26,739 nucleotides of DNA from a virus. Shown piece after piece: positions 1 to 19,022 of this stretch. Within the stretch, counting starts at the first letter, position 1, and each line of letters opens with the position of its first letter. A program made the position numbers and the translations under genes. The stretch is taken from IMG/VR virus record IMGVR_UViG_3300030117_006191, positions 1 to 26,739 of that record. One strand, given 5' to 3'. The notes beneath the pieces were generated by a model. That model saw nothing but the letters and a program-made list of their open reading frames with translations, had not been told where the DNA came from and searched no databases.

Positions 1-129
1 TTCAAGACACAATTGTTAAAGGATAAGATAAAAAAGTTGCACAAAGACGGTAATTTGAAGCTTACAATGGGTGGTGATGATAAGATGTCTAAGTTGGCGT
101 TGTTGCCCATCAAAGAATTGTTTGATTAA
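1..129 (+). CDS. C-terminal end of an unidentified plus-strand gene (5' truncated)
   Basis: An open frame runs from the window edge to TAA at 127-129, giving 42 residues that end in LALLPIKELFD. It is the only plausible plus-strand gene. Its stop overlaps the stop of the giant minus-strand gene (both use the TTAA at 126-129), so two transcription units converge here with no intergenic space. The codons differ from the late genes: leucine is mostly TTG and lysine mostly AAG, whereas the minus-strand genes favour TTA and AAA. This supports real coding on this strand and perhaps a different expression class or origin. No domain is recognisable in this fragment. By position it could be the last gene of an early or replication block, but that is inference. 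Confidence 0.6.
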   Translation, partial: FKTQLLKDKIKKLHKDGNLKLTMGGDDKMSKLALLPIKELFD

Positions 130-3100
130 CTAGAAATATCAGCGAATACAGATTTTTCAAGCCATAATTTTTTGTCTGCAACAACTTTTTCAAATAAATT
201 TTTTCTTATTCTGTACTGATATTCTTGCTCTTTAATTCTTTTTAATCCCTTTTCGCCAAAATTCTTTTTAACCCATGTTAAGTATTCTTTTCGTGGAGTA
301 ATTACGTATTTCCCTTTTTTAGTAAAAGAAACAGGAGCCATATATTTAATTGAAGATTTTAATCTTTGAATTGCAAGTTTATGGGCTTGCTTTGCTGTAA
401 CTGTACCAGGCCTGTTATCCATTATATCTGATACTAAATAATTGTAAGCACTTATGTAAGTTTTTTCTATTTCTTCTTTTTTACCTTCCCATAAAGCTTC
501 TTTAAGTTTTCTGTAATAAACGGTTCTGACTGAATAATCTTCATTCCTAGATGGATTTATGTTAAATGTCTTCTTAAATTGTTTTTCCCAGTTATTCATA
601 ACAAGCATTTCGCTGTAAGCTTTATTGCCTTTTACTTTTCTATAATTTTCATATTGAGAATATAAAACCAAACTTTTCTTTAACCAATTTTGGCTAGCAT
701 CTTCAAAAGTTTCTTTTCCTTCTAAAAAATTCATCAGTTCTTTACTTCCATTCTTTAAATTTCTTATAATAACTGGGTCTGCAAGGCTTTGAAAAGTTCC
801 GTCATCAAATGGAGATATAACGCCACCAAATAATCCTAAAAACTCTGAACGCCACAAATACATAAACATTTTATCTCCAGAAGTCCCTGCGCTATCTGTA
901 GGCTCTTTGTCAAAAATCCATTCATACATAGTGTATAAAGCAGCCCCTGAAACTGCATGACCCATTAAAGCTTTTGCTAAAGGGGCTACGTTTCCATGTT
1001 TTATTGCTGGTTTAAAATAATTTTTATAACTATCAAACGTAGTAGAATAAGCCATCCTCATAAACAATGTTAAAGGTTTACCAATTGTAGTTCCTGCCCA
1101 ATTAGGAATAAGACCAATTGATGTTGTTCCTTGGGCTGAAGCATGAGAATAAAACTCTACATGTCTTTGAATGTTTTCTAATCTTTTAGTTCCCTCAATT
1201 GTGGATAAATCTCCTTTTTCAAGAAATTTAATTTCAGACTCAGGAAGTTTGTACTGGTCTTTAAGTAATCTTTTTATTTTAGCGGGGCTTGATTTTCCAA
1301 ATATTCCTGTCTTACCTCTTAACATTTGAAGATTGTTTGTAAAATAAAGTTTTCCAGCCTCCATTGAAACTATCCTATTTACATTTTCTGTAAATGTCAT
1401 TAGGTTAACGTATTTAAATAAATTTTCCATGCTAAAATACTTCAGCATTCCTTTTCTACCTAAGCTAGTAGTAGGCAATTCCATTGTTTTAGAGCCAAAA
1501 TCAAGAGCTCCTTTTTCTCTTGCTGCATCCCACGTATTTGTATCAAAAGCTTTTAATATCCCTCTACCTGTGTTCCTCAATCCAAAAGAAGCAATACTTC
1601 TAGGAATACCTATTAAAAAATTCTTTATCCCAGACATTGGAGAAGATAGTCCTGCAGCTGCTGACAAATGAGCGGTTGCCCCTAGAAAATCTGCTACCCT
1701 TGAGTGTGATTCGTTTTCTTTGTAAACTCCAACAAGTCTTTCAATAGTATCTTTTGCGTATTTTCCAACCTCTTTATTTTTAAGAATAGTTTCTAACTGC
1801 AAAACCTTTGAAGAGCCTACTGTGTATTTTCCTCCCAATCCTGTGTACTCAGGAAAATATCTTAATGTTGCTAAATATTTTGACATTCCTGCAACGTATG
1901 GGTCAATAGACCTAGATATGCTAGACTCATATGTTTGTATTATTTTCTTTTGACCATTTCTTTTAGTTATTTCAATATACTCAGGAAGCAATGGCCCTCT
2001 TTTTAATAAAAACGAATTTTTAACTTTTGAATGTTGCTGTGTTAATAAAAACATAACATTGTCAGCAATTTCAATTTTTAATTTCTCACTTTTTAAATTT
2101 TTATTATATCTATCAAGATAAGTATTTTTATAGTTTTTATTTATAGCCATATTTTTAGTATGACTGTTGGTTATATTTTTAGAGTTTTTATATTTATTCT
2201 TTGCATAATCTATAGCATCTTGACTAGAAGCTCTTTTAATAGTATCATCAACTATTTTTTGTATGTGCTTTGAATCTGTTTTTTCAGATGTAAAATGGTC
2301 TTTAGCCTCTTGAGTTATTTTTCTTGTGTTATAATCTGTAACATATAATTCGTTATATTCTTTTAAAAATTTTTCATACTCAGCTTTGTTTGTTATTTTC
2401 CCAACTTCTTTCCCAAGCATTTTCCAATAAAAGTTAGTTAATGCTCTGTGTTCTTTATATGCTAAGTTTGCATTTGTCCCTTCGATATCCATGTCTTTTA
2501 TAAATTTTCTTTCTTCTTTAGACATTTTTATGCCAAATGTTTTTCCTTCTTTTTCTGCTTTTAATAAAGCATCTCTTCTTTCTAAATCAAAATTACGAAC
2601 AAAATCAGATTGTTTGCTTCCTAAAAATTTCTTTATATTATTAATATGAACCTCTCCAGGTCCCTTGAACTCTGAATGCAAAGCAACATCAAAGCCCAAT
2701 ATTCTGTTAGCTATTTTTTCTCCAGCCTTTCCTCCATGTTTTTGAATAAAATAATAAGCAGGTAAAAATACCTTCCCTGCACTTTGAACCATTGTAAGTT
2801 TGTCTCCTGGTATCTGAGTAATTTCTCCAGCAGAAAGAGGCATTGGCTCAGTTTTCTTTCCATGAGTTTTAATGTAATGCATGATGTAAGCTTTTGATTT
2901 TTTAGACATTTTAGAAGCTATTCCTGTAGGCTCTCCAAGATTAATAACAATATTAGAAAGTTCGGCTTGAGTTACGTCATACTGTTCTGCAAGTCTTTCA
3001 ATCATTGTTTCACCTTTTTTAACTTCAGGTATAGTTTCAGAATAAGATTCAAGCTCTCGAAGATATCTTTCATAAGAAGCAACTGATGTGTCTAAAGCTT

Positions 3101-6100
3101 TTCTTCCTGTTCCAGAGGGCTCAATATCGTAAAGAGCTCTTACTTCGTCTAAAAAGCCTCGTCCACCTTCAATATTAGCATCAAGCAACTCTTGCTCTCG
3201 TTTTTTTAATTCGTTGTTATATGACTTTATTCTAGTTGGGGCTTCTTTAACTGTTTGAAAGTGGTCATTAAGCCCATTAATATAATTTTCAACAACTTTT
3301 GTTTTAGGAATATTGCCTTTAACAACTCTTCTTGATAATATAAAAGCAATATCGTCTTTATTTGCAATACCAAAAAACTCTTTCATTCTTGAGTTGACTG
3401 CTTTCACCCAATTTCTAAACTTAGACATCATTGTCCTGTTAGTTATTTGTCCAGCTGCAAGCTCTCCAACCCTTTGAACAAGAAGTTCTTCTTTTCTTTC
3501 TGCAAAACTTTCTAAACTTTCACCCTTTTTTCTTTTTAAATCTTTAGCAAAAAAATTAACACCTCTTTTAATTAAAGACTTGTCTTTGTTTGTTCCAAAC
3601 TCTTTTAAAACATCTACAACATAATGTGAAACCTCGTGAGGTATAGTATCTAGCCTTACTTTTCCGTCAGCAATATCAATAATATGACCACGTATTCTTC
3701 CTAAAACTCTATTTCCTTTATTGTTGCCTAATTTTTTCTTTAAATATATTGTTATTTTTTTATAAGCAGGAATTGATTCAAAATATTCTTTTTGTTTTAC
3801 CTGTGTTTCAATACCTGTATCAATTTTATCTTGTAACTCAGGAGTAACTTTTTGCTGTTTTTCTTTTACAGTTTTTCCTCTTTGATTCCAAATTTTATTC
3901 ATAGCCTCAAAACCAGCCTCGACTATTGTTATTGTACTTACATCTTTTGTGTAAATTTTTTCAATAGCTGTCATGTCATGTCCAAGAATATAATTAAGTA
4001 AACGAGTGTCTTTATCGGTGAAATTTTTTGTGGTAAAATAACCTTCTTGCTGAAGAACATCACGAACATCATCTATCTTAGCTTTGTCGTACAGTTTTTT
4101 TAATTTGTCATTAACTAATTTTCTTATAGGATTTTTATTGTTATCTCCAAGCAAACTACTATTTTTTTCAATTTTGTATTTTTTTACAAAAGCATCAATT
4201 TCTTTTGCTGTTTCTAATTTTATAGGTATTTCTCTAGCTTGCCGACCTTTTCCTGTGATTTCACGCATGTCAATAAAATTTTTAGCACCTTCAGATAAAT
4301 CAATTCCTTCTTCTACTTTTCCATTTTTAATATGTTTTATGTCTTCAACTTTTATGCCAGAACCTTTAGCATCTCTTGTAAAAAATTCTTGATTTCTAAC
4401 ACCTGAATCATGAGCAATTTTAACAAAAATATTAGCTCTGTCTGCAATTTCTTTATTTGGTGCATCTTTTTCAAATTCAGCAGTCATTTTTTCTATATCT
4501 TTGCTAAATTTTTCAGGTTTAGGTAAGTTCTTTTGCCTTCTTTTTGACTGTGTATTATATGCTTTAAATGTGGCTTCAAGGCCCAAAGAAGGGTCGTCTA
4601 TGTTTAACCCTCTTTTGCTTGACATCCATTTAAATATAGCTCTAATTGCAGATGCATCAGATGGATTAATTTCTTTTAAAGATTTTCCTTGAGATTCTTT
4701 GAAAAAATTAACAATGTCTTGTTCCGTTACCTCCGTAACGTCCATTTTTTTCTTGTTAATCCATTTAAAAAAACTTTTAACTTTAGGTTTGTAAGCTTTT
4801 ATGGTTGAACTTGTAGGCTCTCCCTTGCTAACGCTTTGCAAACTTCTTTCAACTACAGTTTCTATAAAAGGGTCTTTTTTACCTATGTCCGCACTAACTT
4901 CTTTAACGGTTTTTCTTATTAAATCTCCTGCGCTATCCTTAACATAATCTGTTTCTAATTGTTTTTTGCTCGTTTCTTCAATTTTTTTATATTTTTTTTC
5001 TGGAATTTTTATTGTTCTTCCTTCAACATCTGTAAACTGTCCCAGCTTCTGCTCTACTATATCACCAACCTGTTCTCCCATTTTTTCAAGAGGAGCTTCT
5101 TTTATTTGTTTTTCTTTTGAAAATTCATCTCTTTGAGATTTATATATTCTTTCAATGATTACATCTCTTTGAGCCTTGTCAGCAAGCTTTCCTGTTGTAT
5201 CGATTCCAAACTTTTTTGCCCTATCAGATATTTCAGATTCTGACAAGGTCATTGATTTTTCTTTTGCTTCTTTTAAAGTTTTAAATCCAAAAGGAACATG
5301 AATATCTGACTCATCACCTTTTGACTTAATGTAAACATCAAATTTTGCGTCTATATCTGCATCAATTTTATTAAACTCTTTTTTAGCTTTTCGTGCTCTT
5401 TTTTCAAGATTGCTTGCCAAAGCAACATCTGCTTCTGTTCCACCTTTTTGTTTTAAGTAATTATCTATAACTCCATCAGCTTCTACTAAACTGTTCTTTA
5501 AATCAGTAAACTGCTTGCGTGCAACATCCTTGTCTGTAAAAACGCCATCATCAAGATATTTAAGAAATGTTTTTAATCTTAAATCAAGCTCATTAAGCTC
5601 TATGTTTTGAGTTTTTAAAGCTTCGTCAACAGTTATAGCATCTTTATCGAAAGAAGAATTAATTTCATTTTTATTTTTTTCAGATATATTAGGGTCTTCG
5701 TTAATATTTTCTTTAACTTTATCTTTTAAATCTTTAGTTTTACTTTCTATATCTTGTTTTTTTAAAACTTCTAATTTAGTAGCTTCTTTAATATCATTAA
5801 TTACATCGCTACCATATTTCATGACTTTTTGTTTACCTTTAAGGAAAGTTGTCATCCCTATGTCATGATAAAAATCTCTTAATATAGCGTTAGCATCTAC
5901 ATCTCCACCATTTTTAATTGCATTATACATTCTTTCAGCTGTATTTATTCCCGTAAATGTTACAGCTTCTCCTAATACTTGTCCTGGCATTCCATAGGCC
6001 CCATATGCTCTAAACTTTTCAAATCCTGTAAGAGCTTCTTTTTTTCCTTTTTCTAATAATTTGGCTTGCATGCCACCCATGCCTGTGCCTACAGCTCCAG

Positions 6101-6836
6101 TAAGACCTCCTAAAAGCCCCCCATGAAGAACTCCATAGGTTACACCTGATAGTGGGTTGTCTCCGTGGATTAACGCTTGAACTCCTCCCATAGCACCTTC
6201 ATATACAGCTAATGCAGGGGCCTGCCCTGTTGCACCAATTAAAAGTTTTTGACTTGCTGATAAAGTAGACATAAGAGATGAAGTTTCTTCAGGTGTCCAT
6301 TTAGAAATTGATTTTGGGAGTTTTTTTAATACTTGAGAATTTGCTTTAGTTGCCATGCCTTTTGCAAGACCTTTACTTAATGCTTTTCCTGCAAGTCCAC
6401 CTGTAAACATAGACATTATATCTAAAGGCATAACAAACGATAAAAGACTTGCGCCAATATCTTCAAGTAAATTAAAATCTGTAGTGTCAACGTCATAACG
6501 CTGGTTGCCTGTAATAAGCTGCTCAAGGTTGCCTGTTAAAGAATTATTATATGCGGCCTTAACCCAATCATAAGAATTTTCATCAATAAAATAATCTGCG
6601 TATTGTTGAAGAGTATTTATATCATCTTCCTCTCCATATTGTTGCCCTGCTGATGTTTGTGAGTATTGACCAAAACCAAGTGCTTTATCTTGAGCATCCC
6701 AAGAATTTAAGCTTGTTACTTTATTTTGAGTTCTTAGATTATAATACAAAGCTTCATCTGAAAGTCTTTTATAATAAGATGGACCTTCATTTCTTGCTTT
6801 ATTTAAAAGTTCTAGTGTAGGCTGTGGTATTGCCAT
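126..6836 (-). CDS. Giant polyvalent internal virion (ejection) protein with tyrosine recombinase, HExxH and LysM-like regions
   Basis: This 2236-residue protein is the last gene of the late block. Seen in order: hydrophobic glycine-rich segments at about 126-150 and 205-257; a lysine-rich helical stretch at about 340-640; a tyrosine-recombinase-like domain at about 670-975; a HEVSH zinc-peptidase motif at 1067-1071; a LysM-like motif near 1270-1312; a long helical region; and hydrophobic, glycine-containing C-terminal segments, including one at about 1950-1975. The C-terminal third resembles the large-polyvalent-protein-associated domains of phage internal proteins (LPD38-like is my tentative match). 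Position and size correspond to T7 gp16, so it is probably packaged, ejected and membrane-interacting. It starts 3 nt after the 671-residue gene with no clear Shine-Dalgarno, which suggests coupled translation. The domain matches come from motif reading and are not tested by alignment. Confidence 0.85.
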   Translation of the reverse strand: MAIPQPTLELLNKARNEGPSYYKRLSDEALYYNLRTQNKVTSLNSWDAQDKALGFGQYSQTSAGQQYGEEDDINTLQQYADYFIDENSYDWVKAAYNNSLTGNLEQLITGNQRYDVDTTDFNLLEDIGASLLSFVMPLDIMSMFTGGLAGKALSKGLAKGMATKANSQVLKKLPKSISKWTPEETSSLMSTLSASQKLLIGATGQAPALAVYEGAMGGVQALIHGDNPLSGVTYGVLHGGLLGGLTGAVGTGMGGMQAKLLEKGKKEALTGFEKFRAYGAYGMPGQVLGEAVTFTGINTAERMYNAIKNGGDVDANAILRDFYHDIGMTTFLKGKQKVMKYGSDVINDIKEATKLEVLKKQDIESKTKDLKDKVKENINEDPNISEKNKNEINSSFDKDAITVDEALKTQNIELNELDLRLKTFLKYLDDGVFTDKDVARKQFTDLKNSLVEADGVIDNYLKQKGGTEADVALASNLEKRARKAKKEFNKIDADIDAKFDVYIKSKGDESDIHVPFGFKTLKEAKEKSMTLSESEISDRAKKFGIDTTGKLADKAQRDVIIERIYKSQRDEFSKEKQIKEAPLEKMGEQVGDIVEQKLGQFTDVEGRTIKIPEKKYKKIEETSKKQLETDYVKDSAGDLIRKTVKEVSADIGKKDPFIETVVERSLQSVSKGEPTSSTIKAYKPKVKSFFKWINKKKMDVTEVTEQDIVNFFKESQGKSLKEINPSDASAIRAIFKWMSSKRGLNIDDPSLGLEATFKAYNTQSKRRQKNLPKPEKFSKDIEKMTAEFEKDAPNKEIADRANIFVKIAHDSGVRNQEFFTRDAKGSGIKVEDIKHIKNGKVEEGIDLSEGAKNFIDMREITGKGRQAREIPIKLETAKEIDAFVKKYKIEKNSSLLGDNNKNPIRKLVNDKLKKLYDKAKIDDVRDVLQQEGYFTTKNFTDKDTRLLNYILGHDMTAIEKIYTKDVSTITIVEAGFEAMNKIWNQRGKTVKEKQQKVTPELQDKIDTGIETQVKQKEYFESIPAYKKITIYLKKKLGNNKGNRVLGRIRGHIIDIADGKVRLDTIPHEVSHYVVDVLKEFGTNKDKSLIKRGVNFFAKDLKRKKGESLESFAERKEELLVQRVGELAAGQITNRTMMSKFRNWVKAVNSRMKEFFGIANKDDIAFILSRRVVKGNIPKTKVVENYINGLNDHFQTVKEAPTRIKSYNNELKKREQELLDANIEGGRGFLDEVRALYDIEPSGTGRKALDTSVASYERYLRELESYSETIPEVKKGETMIERLAEQYDVTQAELSNIVINLGEPTGIASKMSKKSKAYIMHYIKTHGKKTEPMPLSAGEITQIPGDKLTMVQSAGKVFLPAYYFIQKHGGKAGEKIANRILGFDVALHSEFKGPGEVHINNIKKFLGSKQSDFVRNFDLERRDALLKAEKEGKTFGIKMSKEERKFIKDMDIEGTNANLAYKEHRALTNFYWKMLGKEVGKITNKAEYEKFLKEYNELYVTDYNTRKITQEAKDHFTSEKTDSKHIQKIVDDTIKRASSQDAIDYAKNKYKNSKNITNSHTKNMAINKNYKNTYLDRYNKNLKSEKLKIEIADNVMFLLTQQHSKVKNSFLLKRGPLLPEYIEITKRNGQKKIIQTYESSISRSIDPYVAGMSKYLATLRYFPEYTGLGGKYTVGSSKVLQLETILKNKEVGKYAKDTIERLVGVYKENESHSRVADFLGATAHLSAAAGLSSPMSGIKNFLIGIPRSIASFGLRNTGRGILKAFDTNTWDAAREKGALDFGSKTMELPTTSLGRKGMLKYFSMENLFKYVNLMTFTENVNRIVSMEAGKLYFTNNLQMLRGKTGIFGKSSPAKIKRLLKDQYKLPESEIKFLEKGDLSTIEGTKRLENIQRHVEFYSHASAQGTTSIGLIPNWAGTTIGKPLTLFMRMAYSTTFDSYKNYFKPAIKHGNVAPLAKALMGHAVSGAALYTMYEWIFDKEPTDSAGTSGDKMFMYLWRSEFLGLFGGVISPFDDGTFQSLADPVIIRNLKNGSKELMNFLEGKETFEDASQNWLKKSLVLYSQYENYRKVKGNKAYSEMLVMNNWEKQFKKTFNINPSRNEDYSVRTVYYRKLKEALWEGKKEEIEKTYISAYNYLVSDIMDNRPGTVTAKQAHKLAIQRLKSSIKYMAPVSFTKKGKYVITPRKEYLTWVKKNFGEKGLKRIKEQEYQYRIRKNLFEKVVADKKLWLEKSVFADISS
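2892..3035 (-). other. LysM-like motif in the giant protein
   Basis: Residues about 1268-1315 read EVKKGETMIERLAEQYDV followed by TQAELSNIV, which fits the LysM pattern (V-x-x-G-[DE]-T-[LM]-x-x-[IL]-A-x-x-Y-x-[VI], then x-x-x-x-L). The usual Asn after the last helix is not obvious. Peptidoglycan binding would suit a protein crossing the cell wall during DNA entry. A chance helix-turn-helix-like match remains possible. Confidence 0.4.
3477..3719 (-). other. HExxH zinc metallopeptidase-like region of the giant protein
   Basis: IPHEVSHYVVDVL places H1067, E1068 and H1071 as a classical HExxH zinc site in a predicted helix. About 40-50 residues later, EELLVQRVGELAAGQ offers a candidate third glutamate ligand. 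The following KDDIAFILSRRVVKG resembles the tail of polyvalent-protein metallopeptidase modules. The family knowledge is that phage and conjugative-element polyvalent proteins often carry such peptidases. The substrate is unknown; self-processing of the giant protein is one possibility. Confidence 0.6.
3912..4829 (-). other. Tyrosine recombinase-like domain within the giant virion protein
   Basis: Residues about 670-975 of the 2236-residue protein. An N-terminal core-binding-like helical part starts near Y682 (STIKAYKPKVKSFFKWI). The catalytic part has box I as DSGVRNQE with R814 and E817, the beta-hairpin lysine K863 in ITGKGRQAREIPI, and box II as LGHDMTAIEKIYTK with H953 and candidate nucleophile Y962. 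The His-to-Tyr spacing of nine residues equals that of XerD and lambda Int. The HxxR motif looks degenerate: R925 lies in DDVRD, with Asp at the usual His position, and R925 to H953 is 28 residues against about 22-23 in XerD and lambda Int. Activity is therefore uncertain, but the fold assignment is strong. Confidence 0.75.
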
Positions 6837-6839
6837 ATT

Positions 6840-8855
6840 TTATACGTTTTTTAAAATTGTGTTTATTCTTTCTTGGTTTGTTTCAAAAATTTCTGGAAAA
6901 ATAGATTCATAAAGCTCTAATTGTTTTTTTAATTCTTCTAATGTGTTTCTATTAAGCTCTAAAACTTGTTTTTGGTCAAAACTTTTGCCTGTTGGAGAAA
7001 GTTTAAATTTTGCTGTCCCTGTTATTGTTAAGCCTTTATCTCTATTCATATAACTTTTTGTTCCAAAAGTAGTTGTTTCTGTTTTCCAATTTAACCATTT
7101 TTGTCCATAATCATCTATTTCTAAAATATGTCTTTGCCATGGCTCTAAATTTTGTCGTTCTCCTGCTTTAGGGCCATAAAGAACTTTTTTACCAGAAAGA
7201 TATTGGTTAATGTCTTTTGGAACTTGTCCAATTGATTGTAATTTTTTTATTTCTTTTAAAGCGTTTTCATATAAAAGTTTATCGTCTGCATGTATTTTTT
7301 CTATTTGTTTTAATTTTTCGTAAGAAAGATTACCTTTATCATCATCTCCAAGTATAGACTTAAAGCTAGAATTAATAGAATTTAACTGTTTGTCTAATGA
7401 AATTTTTTGTTTTGGATAATTTTTTTTATACCAATTTTTTATTTTTTGTTGTTCATCTGGAGAAAGAGCTCCTTTGCCTCCAGGTGCACCGCCACGAGTT
7501 TCTGTGTCTGGAGATAAACTTTCATCGCCATATTTGTAATTTTTAAAAAATGTATCCATATTTTTTAATTTATCCAATCTTTCAGGAAGTTTATAATTAT
7601 TTGCTTTAACAGGGTCTACTTTTTCTAAAACACTTTTTTTATTTAAAAGATTTTTATCTTGATTAGGTAAAAAATTTAAATCTTTTTCTTCTAGTGTTTG
7701 GCTACTGGATATTTTGTCATCTGTTGTTATGCTATCCCCAAGAAAATCATCTGAAAGGTTATACATTTTTGCGTAATTTGTTCCTGTAATAGATTCATAT
7801 GCAGGAATTTTGCTTGCCATTTCATCTTGCAATTTTATTAATTCGGTTTGAAGCATCATTTTATATTGATTTGCAATTTGACTTCCATCGTCAAGATTAA
7901 TTGTATAGTTATCATCATCTTCATTTATTTGAAAACTTGCTTTTTGTTCTAAGTTCATGTTTTCAATGTTTATTAAATTTTTAACATCTTTCCATTGAAC
8001 TGTGTGTTTCCCATTTTTTAAAATTTGTTTAGCATTTTCAATACCTTTTTTCATTTTTTCAAGCTCGTTAAATAAAGATGTTGTAACATTGCTTTCTTGT
8101 CTAGCTTGAGTGCCCATTAAGTCTTGAATAGGTTTTGCGTTTCCTGAAGCTACTGCATTTTGTATTGTATTAAGCTCAAGCTCACTCATTTGCCCATCAC
8201 CGTAAAATTTTAAAGCTCCATTAACAATCATTTCTAAGTTTGCTATTTCTGATGTATGAAATCCTGTCATACGCCTTGAATCATACTGACTCATTTTCCC
8301 TTTTGCTTCTGCCCATTTTTCTGAAATTTTTAAAAAATCTTTTTTCTTTGCTTCAGAATAATTTTTACTATAAGGTATGCCAAATGTATCTTTTGCTCCA
8401 GACGCTATTAAAGCATCTTGTTCTTCAGGAGTTTTTAATTCCCAATTTTCATAAAGGTCTGTTGCCCAATTCCCTGCATCTTTAGAAAGGCTACCAAGAA
8501 CACTCATATCAGTTTTAAAATTAATATTTTGTTCTTGTTGGTTTTTCATTTGATTTAAAATAACATCGTAAGCTTCAAGCGCATTTTCACTCATGTTGTT
8601 CATTTTTTTATTTCTGTATTTTTCAACGTCCTCTATAGATTTATTAAGAACATCAGAATTGTATTCTGTTTGATAATTTCCCGCAAGAAGTCCAATCATT
8701 TTAAGGTCATAATCGTCTCTTCTTTTTCTGTTTGCCTGGACACCTTGAGCAATTCCTCTTCCCATTCCAAGAACACGTTCAAGGGTATCCATTGCTGTGT
8801 TGGTGCGTACCCCTTGTTGCCTTCCTCCTCTATTCCAATAATCACCGTTTGCCAT
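6840..8855 (-). CDS. Internal virion protein, 671 aa (T7 gp15-like by position)
   Basis: A largely helical, charged protein of 671 residues with Lys/Glu/Asn-rich stretches, starting MANGDYWNRGGRQQG. No enzyme motif or signal peptide is visible. It lies between the 271-residue protein and the 2236-residue protein, so size and order match gp15 of T7-like ejection modules; sequence similarity to gp15 is not claimed. The start is supported by an AGGAG Shine-Dalgarno at 8861-8865, five bases upstream, which overlaps the stop codon of the preceding gene. It ends 3 nt before the giant gene. Its probable role is an injected scaffold or tube component during genome delivery. Confidence 0.65.
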   Translation of the reverse strand: MANGDYWNRGGRQQGVRTNTAMDTLERVLGMGRGIAQGVQANRKRRDDYDLKMIGLLAGNYQTEYNSDVLNKSIEDVEKYRNKKMNNMSENALEAYDVILNQMKNQQEQNINFKTDMSVLGSLSKDAGNWATDLYENWELKTPEEQDALIASGAKDTFGIPYSKNYSEAKKKDFLKISEKWAEAKGKMSQYDSRRMTGFHTSEIANLEMIVNGALKFYGDGQMSELELNTIQNAVASGNAKPIQDLMGTQARQESNVTTSLFNELEKMKKGIENAKQILKNGKHTVQWKDVKNLINIENMNLEQKASFQINEDDDNYTINLDDGSQIANQYKMMLQTELIKLQDEMASKIPAYESITGTNYAKMYNLSDDFLGDSITTDDKISSSQTLEEKDLNFLPNQDKNLLNKKSVLEKVDPVKANNYKLPERLDKLKNMDTFFKNYKYGDESLSPDTETRGGAPGGKGALSPDEQQKIKNWYKKNYPKQKISLDKQLNSINSSFKSILGDDDKGNLSYEKLKQIEKIHADDKLLYENALKEIKKLQSIGQVPKDINQYLSGKKVLYGPKAGERQNLEPWQRHILEIDDYGQKWLNWKTETTTFGTKSYMNRDKGLTITGTAKFKLSPTGKSFDQKQVLELNRNTLEELKKQLELYESIFPEIFETNQERINTILKNV

Positions 8856-8863
8856 TTATGCTC

Positions 8864-9679
8864 CTATTGTCCCATTAATTCTTGCCATCCATATATCGTA
8901 TCTAAAACATTTTCAGTTGCACCAGCTTGCATACTCATAATGTCTTCAAGAAGGTTTCCATATCCTCCACGATACATTTGCTCAGCTCCTGATAATCCAG
9001 CAGTTCTTGCACCACTTCCAGCAAAACCACCAGTTCCAGCTTTGCCCATTGCTTGTGTTTTTTGTCCAATTAATTTTTGACGACCCACATCTTCAACTGG
9101 GTCATAATATGCAGCTGTTGTTTTTTCAATCATCTCAGGAGTTAATGCTTTAACTTCTCCAGCTTGTATAGGGTCTTTTACGCCTCCAATCTGAGATAAT
9201 GTTGCTGCAAGACTTTCAGGGTCAAATATATTTACTCCTGATAAACCAGTTCCATAATACGCTGTTTCGCCAGGGTCTACTTCTTCAAAATCAAAACCTT
9301 GAATAACATCTTGCCCTACAAGTGCTTCTAATCCCCCTTGTAAAACAATACCACTATTTAAACCAGTTCCATAATAATCTTCTGCATATAAGTCTTGAAT
9401 TGCATTTAATTGTTCATTTAAGCTATGCCCCCTAAATCCACTAAAAATATTTGCTAAAGCTCCTTGAATAGAATCATTAATTCCTTCATATTGATATGTT
9501 CCAAATGGATTTGATGACTGATATGCATTAATAGCAGCTAACATATTATTTAAAGCATTATGGGTACTTATTTGATTTGAAGGCGATTGAGCAGAAATAA
9601 AATCTTGATAGCCTGCCCCTAAATAAGGGTCAACAATTGGAGTAAATTCTATATATGGATTATGTCCTGGTGTATGCAT
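8864..9679 (-). CDS. Virion-associated protein, 271 aa, ejection module
   Basis: Starts MHTPGHNPYIEF, with its ATG overlapping the stop of the 314-residue gene as TAATG. The motif YYGTGL occurs twice, at residues 102-107 and 141-146, each in a Gly/Ser/aromatic context, suggesting a short internal duplication. The C-terminal third (KLIGQKTQAMGKAGTGG, then SGARTAGLSGAEQMYRGG) looks like small-residue-rich internal virion proteins of marine podoviruses. I do not recognise a named family. It sits in the four-gene block 314-271-671-2236, so it is probably packaged inside the capsid. Confidence 0.6.
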   Translation of the reverse strand: MHTPGHNPYIEFTPIVDPYLGAGYQDFISAQSPSNQISTHNALNNMLAAINAYQSSNPFGTYQYEGINDSIQGALANIFSGFRGHSLNEQLNAIQDLYAEDYYGTGLNSGIVLQGGLEALVGQDVIQGFDFEEVDPGETAYYGTGLSGVNIFDPESLAATLSQIGGVKDPIQAGEVKALTPEMIEKTTAAYYDPVEDVGRQKLIGQKTQAMGKAGTGGFAGSGARTAGLSGAEQMYRGGYGNLLEDIMSMQAGATENVLDTIYGWQELMGQ

Positions 9680-10700: not shown

Positions 10701-11375
10701 CTAAAAATTTGTTCCAAAAAAAACTGCATTATCTGATACTGTTGTTGGTGCTAATGTGTAATCTATTACAGGGTCTGAAGCTGTACCTGAATACTCAACA
10801 AAATAAACACCATTACTATTTCCACTACCTGTTGGTTCAATATCTTTTAAATCATAATCATAATTAATCAATCCTATAACAACAGTATCTTGACTTACCA
10901 TATCTGATAAAGCAGATGATGTTAATGCTATTTGATTCATAGCTGAATTAGTAGTCCATGTTGACACTTCAGCTGAATATTTAGTAACATTGCTTTCATT
11001 ATCTCCTCCACCACTACCATCAGAACTTCCTGTAGTCCAACCTGTCATATTATCAAAATCTGCATTAGCAAACCCAAAATCATGTGGACATTTAACTAAA
11101 ATAACATCACCACCTGTTAGTGAATACCCTCTTACTTTAAATGTAGCACTTGCCACAGTAGATGTTACCCCTGATGTGTCAAACTTAAAAAATGCTCTAT
11201 AAACTCTAAAAATTGCACCACCACCTCTTGAAGCAAACTTATTTGCTTGAACTGCAAGAAGATTTCTTGTTTGAACCCCATTATATGTTCCTGATGTTGC
11301 ATCTCTTGTTCCTGCCCAACTTGAATTTTGTTTAGAAATATACCCATCATCTGTATGTGTTGTAATAGTTGGCAT
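10701..11375 (-). CDS. Tail-associated beta-sandwich protein (DNRLRE-like), 224 aa
   Basis: A Ser/Thr/Gly-rich, beta-predicted protein. The stretch FRVYRAFFKFDTSGVTSTVA followed by SATFKVRGYS has the pattern of DNRLRE-type or carbohydrate-binding-like modules (R-x-[FY]-[LF]-x-F-D-[TL]-S, then A-x-[LF]-x-[LV]). A serine/glycine linker (SSDGSGGGDNES) sits mid-protein. It is translationally coupled (TAATG) to the methyltransferase gene, which is in turn coupled to the tail fibre. It may therefore be a fibre-tip or host-surface-binding component, which is inference. There is no transmembrane segment or catalytic motif. Confidence 0.55.
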   Translation of the reverse strand: MPTITTHTDDGYISKQNSSWAGTRDATSGTYNGVQTRNLLAVQANKFASRGGGAIFRVYRAFFKFDTSGVTSTVASATFKVRGYSLTGGDVILVKCPHDFGFANADFDNMTGWTTGSSDGSGGGDNESNVTKYSAEVSTWTTNSAMNQIALTSSALSDMVSQDTVVIGLINYDYDLKDIEPTGSGNSNGVYFVEYSGTASDPVIDYTLAPTTVSDNAVFFGTNF

Positions 11376-11923
11376 TATAATTCTACCTTTGGCATATTAT
11401 AAACATTATTATTAAAATATTGATTTGCATCAGGTGTTACAGATATATTTTCAAAGGTAACAGAATCAAAATTATGTTCATTTCTATTGTCAGTAAAGTT
11501 ATTCCAATAAGTTATTTTTGCACCTGATTTAGCTTTAGCTAATGCAAAGTCTTTAAAGTTAGCCCAACTATCATCTCCATAAGTATCAATAAAAATTCCA
11601 TCATAAGTTGATAGCCCACTAACACTATTCCAATCCCCTTCAATAACAGTAACATTAGATTTATCTGATGCCCAAGCATTTAGCCTTTCTATAATTTGTG
11701 GATGTATTTCTATTATAGTGTGTGAATTTACACCTTGTGATTGTATGTAATCAGAACATATACCCATACCAAAGCCTATTTCTAAAACATCTCCACTATT
11801 ATGACAAATAAACTCTGCACATTTTTGCATTATTGCTGATTCCCATGACATCATCACTTCTTCACCAGATTCAGTAATTATCTTTGTATCTTCAAATGTT
11901 AATATTTCGTCTTTAAAAGCCAT
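11375..11923 (-). CDS. SAM-dependent methyltransferase, guanidinoacetate methyltransferase (GAMT)/RMT2-like
   Basis: A 182-residue Rossmann-fold class I methyltransferase. The SAM motif I is VLEIGFGMG (46-54), the acidic end of strand 2 is IIEIHP (70-75), and DGIFIDTYG (108-116) marks strand 4. The upstream signature EEVMMSWESAIM (21-32), the GFGM core, a Trp in EGDWNSV and the DTY triplet together closely match guanidinoacetate N-methyltransferase and fungal arginine N5-methyltransferase RMT2. An upstream in-frame ATG at 11980 exists, but I chose 11923. That ATG forms the TAATG overlap with the fibre stop used throughout this block, and it yields MAFKDEILTFED, which fits the family start. 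The stop is coupled to the next gene. The substrate is unknown: a virion arginine side chain, a host metabolite or a surface glycan. Confidence 0.8.
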   Translation of the reverse strand: MAFKDEILTFEDTKIITESGEEVMMSWESAIMQKCAEFICHNSGDVLEIGFGMGICSDYIQSQGVNSHTIIEIHPQIIERLNAWASDKSNVTVIEGDWNSVSGLSTYDGIFIDTYGDDSWANFKDFALAKAKSGAKITYWNNFTDNRNEHNFDSVTFENISVTPDANQYFNNNVYNMPKVEL

Positions 11924-13062
11924 TAAAATTGAAAGTCCAATGTTGCTACACCATAACATATTTGATTGTCTGCATCCCAAAAAAATGAAATAATATCTAC
12001 ATGGTTAGCATCTGTTGTTAATGTTGGATTACTACCACCTGGAAACTTAACTGTAGCTGCTGTACCACCTGCTAATCCTGCTTTATAATTAGTAACAGTT
12101 CTGCTTCCTGTTCCATCTTGTTTTAACAATACAACAAAATTTCCTGAAGTAGCTGGTAATATAAGATTTAAATCAGTAATATTCCCTGAGCCAAAAGTAA
12201 CAAATTGTTTGTTTCCTGTTCTAAAATCTACATCAGTATCAGTTGCATCATAAGTTGGTGTTACAAGGTCAAAACCTACACCACACCCATCAAATTCTAC
12301 ATGACCATCAGGCTCAATATTTAAATGAGCATCTGCCCCTGAATTATCATAAGTTCTTATTAATGTTTCTCCTGCTGTATCTGTTTGAATTTGAAACCAA
12401 TCATCCATAGAAGCACCACCTGCTTCATATAATGAAAAGGAAGATAAATCATTTTTAGCAGTTATTCTTGCAAAGTCATCTCCTGCATTTTTAAAATAAA
12501 TTCTTCCAGCTGCTGAACCTGCATCTAAAGTTATATCGCCATCAGTATCTAAAGTTAAATGAGCTGCACTTGCATCATCATCTACTGTAGCTAAAGTAGT
12601 TGCACCATGTTGAGCTACGGTAATACTAAACTTATCACCTGTATCTTCATCATCATGTATAGTCATTGCAGTGTTATCTACATCAAAATCAAATATAGTG
12701 GTAGTACCATCATTCATAGTAACATTTCCACCATCAGCTGATAACGCTATATCTCCTGATGAATCTAAAGTAAAATTACCTGTAACTGAATATGTTGAAG
12801 GAAGCCTAAATTGTTTAATGGTGTTAACCTTTGATTTAATTTCTTTAATTGCTTTTTCAAGGCTATCAAATGATTCTCCAATTTTAACTCCATGCCATTT
12901 GTGGTTTGCTTTTATATAAAGTTTTAAACCACTTGATGTTCTTCTAAATGTTAAATCCCCTTCACTTCCTTGGGCATTTAATGGATTTCCTTTGCCAATT
13001 GTTGGCACTGAAGATTTTCTTGCATTAATGTTTCTAGTTACATTTGTGCTTCTTATTGACAT
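11923..13062 (-). CDS. Tail fibre / receptor-binding protein, 379 aa
   Basis: Residues 31-60 form a small beta head (GSEGDLTFRRTSSGLKLYI), then a charged helix (about 62-85) resembles the coiled coil before a trimeric fibre shaft. The shaft carries recurring LTLDSSGDIAL, LTLDTDGDITL and LNIEPDGHVEF strands at about 98, 169 and 247, consistent with a repetitive beta fibre. The C-terminal part (from about 285: QFVTFGSGNITDLNLILP, ending GVATLDFQF) resembles the terminal knob of many environmental phage fibres. It is coupled (TAATG) to the tail hub gene upstream and to the methyltransferase downstream. The role in host recognition follows from architecture and position; the receptor is unknown. 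Confidence 0.75.
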   Translation of the reverse strand: MSIRSTNVTRNINARKSSVPTIGKGNPLNAQGSEGDLTFRRTSSGLKLYIKANHKWHGVKIGESFDSLEKAIKEIKSKVNTIKQFRLPSTYSVTGNFTLDSSGDIALSADGGNVTMNDGTTTIFDFDVDNTAMTIHDDEDTGDKFSITVAQHGATTLATVDDDASAAHLTLDTDGDITLDAGSAAGRIYFKNAGDDFARITAKNDLSSFSLYEAGGASMDDWFQIQTDTAGETLIRTYDNSGADAHLNIEPDGHVEFDGCGVGFDLVTPTYDATDTDVDFRTGNKQFVTFGSGNITDLNLILPATSGNFVVLLKQDGTGSRTVTNYKAGLAGGTAATVKFPGGSNPTLTTDANHVDIISFFWDADNQICYGVATLDFQF

Positions 13063-18236: not shown

Positions 18237-19022
18237 TTATCCATTTATTAGTTCACCCCACAATGAGGTTCTTCCATCAATTATTTGTATTACATGCACA
18301 GTAAAATGCCCTTTAGTATAAAAATCCACAATTGCAAATGCATGTGCCCAGTTTACAGGTCTTCCACCTAACCAAGCGTTTTGTTCAGCGGTCATGTCTT
18401 TTAAACATCCAATGCTCCATGCTGACTTGGGTCCATCCATGTGTGTCATTGACGACTGTTGGATATCGTGATGATGTCCATACATTACATTCGTTCCAAG
18501 ACGTATTAGATGATTTCTTGTATGTTGAACTCCTGCAAAGTGATGGCCATGATAAAAATGTAGTTTTCCAATCTTTAAATATTTTCCCGCAGGATAATAT
18601 TTGTAACCTCTTTCTTTTAGTTTTGTGCATTTATCAAACCTGTATTGTGTTAAATATGGATTTTCATCCACAAATCTATTCATCCAATCATCATGATTAC
18701 CTTCAATCATGTACTTTTCTTTACAACCAGCCTTATCTAAAGAACTGTCAATACGGTCCATACCTTTATTAACATCTTTAACATCTTGGTCTATGTATGG
18801 CAACTGATACTCTAATGGCGGTCTTTTTTTCTTTTTCCATTGCCAGTGAGAGCAACCATGCCATTCGCCAATATCCCCTAAATCTACATAGACATCAGGC
18901 TTTACAATTTCAATTGCTTTTTTTACCACATTAATAGCTTTTTTATGAGCCAGTGGAAAATGTTTATCAGGTGTTACAAATACTCTTTTAACTACACCTT
19001 TATCTTGTTTTGTATAACTCAT
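18237..19022 (-). CDS. Calcineurin-like metallophosphoesterase, 261 aa
   Basis: All the metal-binding motifs of the family are visible: D19-x-H21 (TPDKHF), GD at 49-50 (VDLGDIGEW), GNHD at 108-111 (IEGNHDDWMNRF), HGH at 158-160 (FYHGHHF) and GHHH at 182-185 (MYGHHHDIQ). The protein is therefore probably an active di-metal phosphohydrolase in the cytoplasm. Substrate choice (nucleotide, phosphoprotein, nucleic-acid end or cyclic nucleotide) cannot be read from sequence. Its start overlaps the 51-residue gene by 23 nt and has no good Shine-Dalgarno, suggesting coupled translation. Its place between neck and tail genes is unusual for an enzyme, although such genes occur in marine phage late regions. 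Confidence 0.9.
   Translation of the reverse strand: MSYTKQDKGVVKRVFVTPDKHFPLAHKKAINVVKKAIEIVKPDVYVDLGDIGEWHGCSHWQWKKKKRPPLEYQLPYIDQDVKDVNKGMDRIDSSLDKAGCKEKYMIEGNHDDWMNRFVDENPYLTQYRFDKCTKLKERGYKYYPAGKYLKIGKLHFYHGHHFAGVQHTRNHLIRLGTNVMYGHHHDIQQSSMTHMDGPKSAWSIGCLKDMTAEQNAWLGGRPVNWAHAFAIVDFYTKGHFTVHVIQIIDGRTSLWGELING

Follow-up and report, generated by a model that had tools for sequence, protein, structure and literature searches.

A putative tyrosine recombinase module carried as an interchangeable cassette in a giant late protein of uncultured marine viruses

What does a tyrosine recombinase (YR) domain do inside the giant late protein of a virus? This question arose from a preliminary description of the 26,739 nucleotides analysed here (referred to as the window), which correspond to positions 1-26,739 of IMG/VR record IMGVR_UViG_3300030117_006191, a viral contig of 26.7 kb. 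Recombinases are familiar as enzymes synthesised inside the cell. In the window, portal, major head protein and further head or tail genes form a minus-strand block, at the end of which lies a single open frame of 2236 aa (126..6836, stop codon included; all features located below lie on this strand). This giant frame occupies a late position, after the portal, head and tail genes. The core of its product is made of two conserved blocks, N-terminal (residues 1-380, 5697..6836) and C-terminal (residues 1191-2236, 129..3266), both delimited by homologue alignment and HMM matches. Between them, the YR module (residues 655-1005, 3822..4874) sits just upstream of a HExxH metallopeptidase-like domain (residues 1000-1190, 3267..3839, with HEVSH at 3624-3638), so that at least two disparate domains are found in one product of the late operon, among virion genes. 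The HExxH domain was recognised by its motif and is conserved in most long homologues, SprT-like Pfam matches being weak and restricted to 4 relatives. An artefactual fusion was ruled out because the same architecture recurs in many independent contigs. The neighbouring late gene (671 aa, 6840..8855) agrees with the ORF order in relatives, most of those examined having a gene of 500-660 aa directly upstream of the giant one. The giant protein and its short homologues were unrecognised by PHROGs, and neither the profile of the C-terminal block nor that of the 671-aa protein had a credible relative in the PDB. Elsewhere in the window, a 201-aa protein encoded amid structural genes (11375-11980) gave a methyltransferase-like match (RrnaAD, 27.2 bits, above cut-off) and a metallophosphoesterase was found within the late gene block (18237-19022; PHROG 221, E 1.7e-22); no tRNA was detected in the 26.7 kb.

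The window belongs to a group of uncultured viruses. A portal search uncovered 186 IMG/VR relatives, and the sole match of the portal among annotated phage records was at 25% identity. Homologues of the giant protein were gathered from these 186 records and then by scans with C-terminal-block alignments, which yielded about 80 of them, in uncultured marine viral contigs. No match was obtained when the window protein and three homologues were compared by tblastn with 50,697 phage records (the domain alone gave chance matches only), nor when bacterial genomes were scanned with core-protein and portal patterns. The homologues came in two sizes, long (at least 2100 aa, with a divergent middle) and short (about 1500-1900 aa, mostly without this middle). 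A model of the YR module matched 39 of the 44 long homologues, weakly in L130, L186 and L189; among short complete ones, only L120 was matched, weakly. L130 (from G012) is a giant homologue of 2924 aa whose partial module match lacks the His and Tyr end. Five module families, A to E, were distinguished, family A comprising the window, L131, L134, L172 and others. Families A, B and E detected each other, and family C was linked to the A/B/E profile by hhalign (E 4.6e-8). In several family D modules, box II and/or the Tyr end was unrecognisable. Free-standing integrases were not found, PF00589 having no match outside the giant frames in 47 related records, which are fragmentary contigs.

Taken as a single sequence, the window module gave moderate evidence of its nature, which became clear once relatives were added. 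Its core-binding (SAM-like) domain (residues 677-738, 4623..4808) was detected directly by Pfam PF02899 (Phage_int_SAM_1; 25.5 bits, cut-off 22.3). The Pfam model of the catalytic domain was silent on the window protein as a single sequence; relatives L138 and L153 exceeded the Phage_integrase cut-off inside their own giant frames. Likewise, a phmmer search of the PDB with the domain sequence alone returned nothing clear, and a profile of 16 relatives was needed. Using hhalign, 16 modules were matched to XerD and the lambda, P22 and HP1 integrases with 93% probability (E 2.9e-7) over 273 columns, covering both the core-binding and the catalytic domain. A profile search of the whole PDB retrieved only YRs at significant E values (4a8e 5.7e-7, XerA 3e-6, XerD 1.9e-5). 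The AlphaFold2 (AF2) model of the module (pLDDT 77.8, pTM 0.72) placed Cre, XerA and XerD on top in Foldseek and an archaeal Xer at Z 15.3 in VIA, with YopR, MrpR and SroF among the weaker fold matches. Profiles and predicted structure thus identify residues 655-1005 as a tyrosine recombinase fold module, far beyond chance. The preliminary description had proposed such a domain, with a core-binding half, at residues 670-975, i.e. exactly 4829-3912, and had called for a structural comparison with XerD/Int; Pfam, hhalign, the PDB profile and the AF2 model in Foldseek and VIA all agree with it.

The catalytic domain (about residues 775-975, 3912..4514) displayed an active-site set composed of R814 (4395-4397), E817, K863 (4248-4250), R925 (4062-4064), H953 (3978-3980) and Y962 (3951-3953). 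Five of these residues and the nine-residue spacing from H953 to Y962 had been proposed beforehand, and the residue map places them as announced; hhalign paired R814, K863, R925, H953 and Y962 with XerD R148, K172, R247, H270 and Y279. In 20 modules of canonical order, conservation reached or exceeded 85% at the active-site columns alone: R (20/20), E (20/20), K (17/20), R (19/20), H (17/20) and Y (19/20). Within the 16 modules of families A, B and E, which share 14-44% identity with the window (near-copy L131 aside), R814, E817, R925 and Y962 were the only invariant columns, H953 being found in 15. In the multiple alignment, the window fills the lysine column with G862 and has K863 in the next position, an alignment shift of one. 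Such confinement of conservation to catalytic residues is the pattern expected of a working enzyme, and these alignments indicate that the active site of the module is under selection. The proposed fold could have been refuted by the lack of a YR structural match or by loss of R814, H953 or Y962 in homologues, and neither was observed.

One residue of the standard set is missing. The His of the HxxR motif, replaced by D922 in the window, occurred in 0 of the 20 modules, at a position that is itself variable; the earlier remark on an Asp in its place, and the caution attached to it, remain valid. This absence lowers the claim of standard chemistry and leaves that of the fold unaffected. It also recalls the type IB topoisomerases, in which a related constellation is found (R130, K167, R223, H265 and Y274 in the vaccinia enzyme). 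These enzymes share the fold and were among the VIA matches (Z 9.7-11.7), so the module might serve to relax torsional stress in the entering DNA by nicking and religation. Yet Xer, Cre and integrases ranked above topoisomerases in sequence and structure searches alike, and a recombinase-type core-binding domain is present, which makes a topoisomerase-like role very improbable.

The module behaved as a separate unit within the giant protein. Comparison of the window with L131, its nearest relative, gave dS values of 0.66 for residues 1-380, 0.09 for residues 671-1000 and 0.62 for residues 1600-2236. Sliding dS delimited a tract of about residues 450-1050 (3687..5489), with 0.04-0.18 inside versus 0.26-1.3 outside. 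Since dS is low in the module region only, this region was exchanged recently between the window and L131 lineages, and strong purifying selection was rejected as the cause of their 96% module identity. On a tree of the C-terminal block (quick tree method), module type changed at least 23 times, the least possible number being 6 and the shuffled mean 39.8. Sisters L146 and L149 carry modules of different families (C and B, respectively), and L136 and L150 have none amid relatives that have one. These comparisons show the YR module to be an interchangeable cassette, swapped in and out of one slot among related viruses. Its absence from some sister proteins implies that the core protein works without it, the module being cargo. 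This absence, together with the family D modules whose box II and Tyr are unrecognisable, might also be read as the mark of a decaying passenger that is functionless in this virus. Such decay is scarcely credible given the selective retention of R, E, K, R, H and Y in highly divergent modules, the breadth of module matches among long homologues and a module dN/dS of 0.32 between the window and L131. On a larger scale, identity to G002 is 88% for the giant gene (window 1-6843) and no more than 74% for part of the next gene (7738-9234), a contrast that would suit transfer of the entire giant gene as one block too.

Family C distinguished itself by the order of its motifs. Its 12 modules (residues 655-1040 of the L158 giant protein, and 11 relatives) share an invariant Arg II, an invariant Tyr and an invariant R-x-x-E motif, and this last motif (e.g. 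TGPRLNE) occurred after the Tyr instead of before the beta sheet. When the R-x-x-E segment was moved back, scores rose from 30.4 to 41.2 against canonical recombinases (controls 19.5-35.8) and from 65.7 to 76.6 against family A (controls 58-73), the controls consisting of alternative placement and column shuffle. Foldseek with the family C module gave no significant match (best E 0.22) and VIA reached Z 7.8 only. Our working hypothesis is that family C would be a circularly permuted recombinase.

Other contents of the slot bear on whether catalysis is what matters. In L193, the giant protein carries FtsK-gamma (E 1.7e-17) together with an isolated integrase core-binding domain (approximately residues 580-638 and 860-945), and no YR catalytic domain; L192, a close relative, has neither FtsK-gamma nor the core-binding domain. 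Within FtsK, the gamma domain serves to read KOPS and to activate XerD. The co-occurrence of FtsK-gamma and a lone core-binding domain points to DNA recognition as the common theme of the slot, catalysis being selected in families A, B and E. The coexistence of complete, degenerate and core-binding-only versions suggests that recombinase and DNA-binding roles both occur in the family. L193, the several family D modules deprived of a recognisable Tyr end and the weaker fold matches to YopR, MrpR and SroF would all suit a repurposed, non-catalytic DNA-binding module that attaches the ejected protein to DNA of the phage or of the host, or acts as an early regulator. For the window itself we regard this as unlikely, since most catalytic residues are lost in the YR-fold repressor MrpR (PMC10516654), whereas conservation in families A, B and E is almost limited to R, E, K, R, H and Y, and 6 of the 7 catalytic residues in Table 3 of that paper are present in the window module. 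Among the middle regions of other relatives (alignments A5 and A6), single members matched the Eco29kI restriction endonuclease (E 3.5e-4) and a GIY-YIG endonuclease model (E 5e-4), and other nuclease cargo may therefore occupy the slot.

The reading that we favour, and consider fairly probable on sequence and model grounds, is that the window encodes a catalytically competent Xer/integrase-like YR as an interchangeable cargo cassette in a giant late ejection protein. From gene position, architecture and the precedent of polyvalent proteins, we infer that this protein is packaged in the virion and leaves it along with the DNA. Its peptidase domain may then process the polypeptide or free the module, which would bind a specific DNA site in the new host; Y962 would cleave, and strands would be exchanged or religated before phage genes are expressed. 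Three points weigh against this reading, namely the HxxR His missing from 20/20 modules, the relatives that retain just degenerate or core-binding parts, and the location of the module inside a long polypeptide from which its release is presumed. Known YRs work as dimers or tetramers, which adds to this last concern.

The target of such a recombinase could lie in the genome of the phage or outside it. A packaged enzyme might act on the phage's own genome at entry, by circularisation or dimer resolution. P1 Cre performs these reactions and is made in the cell. The giant protein's YR is the sole one detected in the 47 records, and imperfect repeats (63 and about 92 bases, 90-95% identical) are common to both end regions of G002 (45,263 bases, L225-L227). 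An essential genome function should nevertheless persist, and the module is swapped, degenerate or absent among sisters; nor was a dif-like inverted repeat found in the intergenic DNA of the window, and we judge an own-genome role to be quite improbable. The earlier proposal of a recombinase delivered with the DNA listed several roles. Its YR fold, fused into a giant late protein with conserved residues, was upheld, and an essential role such as genome circularisation turned out less likely than it implied, because the module is exchangeable, dispensable and degenerate or permuted in some relatives. A cassette swapped, lost or degenerate among sister viruses favours a target outside the phage's own genome, and an accessory act on host or rival-element DNA (e.g. 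a dif/Xer-type, prophage or satellite site) is more likely than an essential act on its own. A wider proposal, possible but rather doubtful, is that a family of virion-delivered YRs exists as interchangeable cassettes in the giant ejection proteins of a podovirus-like group of uncultured marine viruses, including circularly permuted recombinases (keeping R-x-x-E, Arg II and Tyr) and FtsK-gamma variants, and acts on host or competitor DNA at entry.

If the favoured reading is true, the recombinase would enter along with the DNA and be active ahead of all phage gene expression, and cassette swapping between sister viruses would suggest that its target, in the host or in a rival, is under diversifying pressure. 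The modules would also provide a large set of natural YR variants, without the HxxR His and with an apparent circular permutation. A described virion-embedded recombinase was not found in the open papers searched, and what appears to be new here is the module as an interchangeable cassette.

Among known systems, the module most resembles Xer and other simple YRs (XerD, XerA, XerH, Cre), its best fold matches, with a core-binding domain followed by a catalytic one, R, K, R, H and Y aligned with XerD and the nine-residue His-Tyr spacing. It differs from them by its location inside a 2236-aa late protein, by D922 in place of the HxxR His and by an identity of about 15%. Likewise, it is unlike a phage integrase, a lysogeny gene, in being part of a larger frame instead of free-standing. 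MrpR/YopR and SroF, YR-fold repressors of Bacillus phages, are comparable as YR folds in phage proteins that do not serve as integrases, yet they are free-standing. With FtsK, the relationship is limited to the gamma domain that shares the giant-protein slot with a core-binding domain in L193; there is no motor domain, and FtsK-gamma is absent from the window. Podovirus ejection proteins (T7 gp16, P22 gp16) are similar by position and size only, as giant late proteins ending a structural operon, no PHROG or PDB match to these internal virion proteins being obtained in sequence or fold. A parallel for the whole protein is offered by polyvalent proteins of phages and conjugative elements, which are large, multi-domain, encoded beside virion genes and provided with a HExxH metallopeptidase-like domain and enzymatic cargo, as in the packaged N4 vRNAP and P1 DdrB, both with metallopeptidase domains (PMC5512222). 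Recombinases and integrases are unmentioned in that work, whereas the cargo slot described here holds YR modules; if our reading is true, the polyvalent-protein idea would extend to site-specific recombination.
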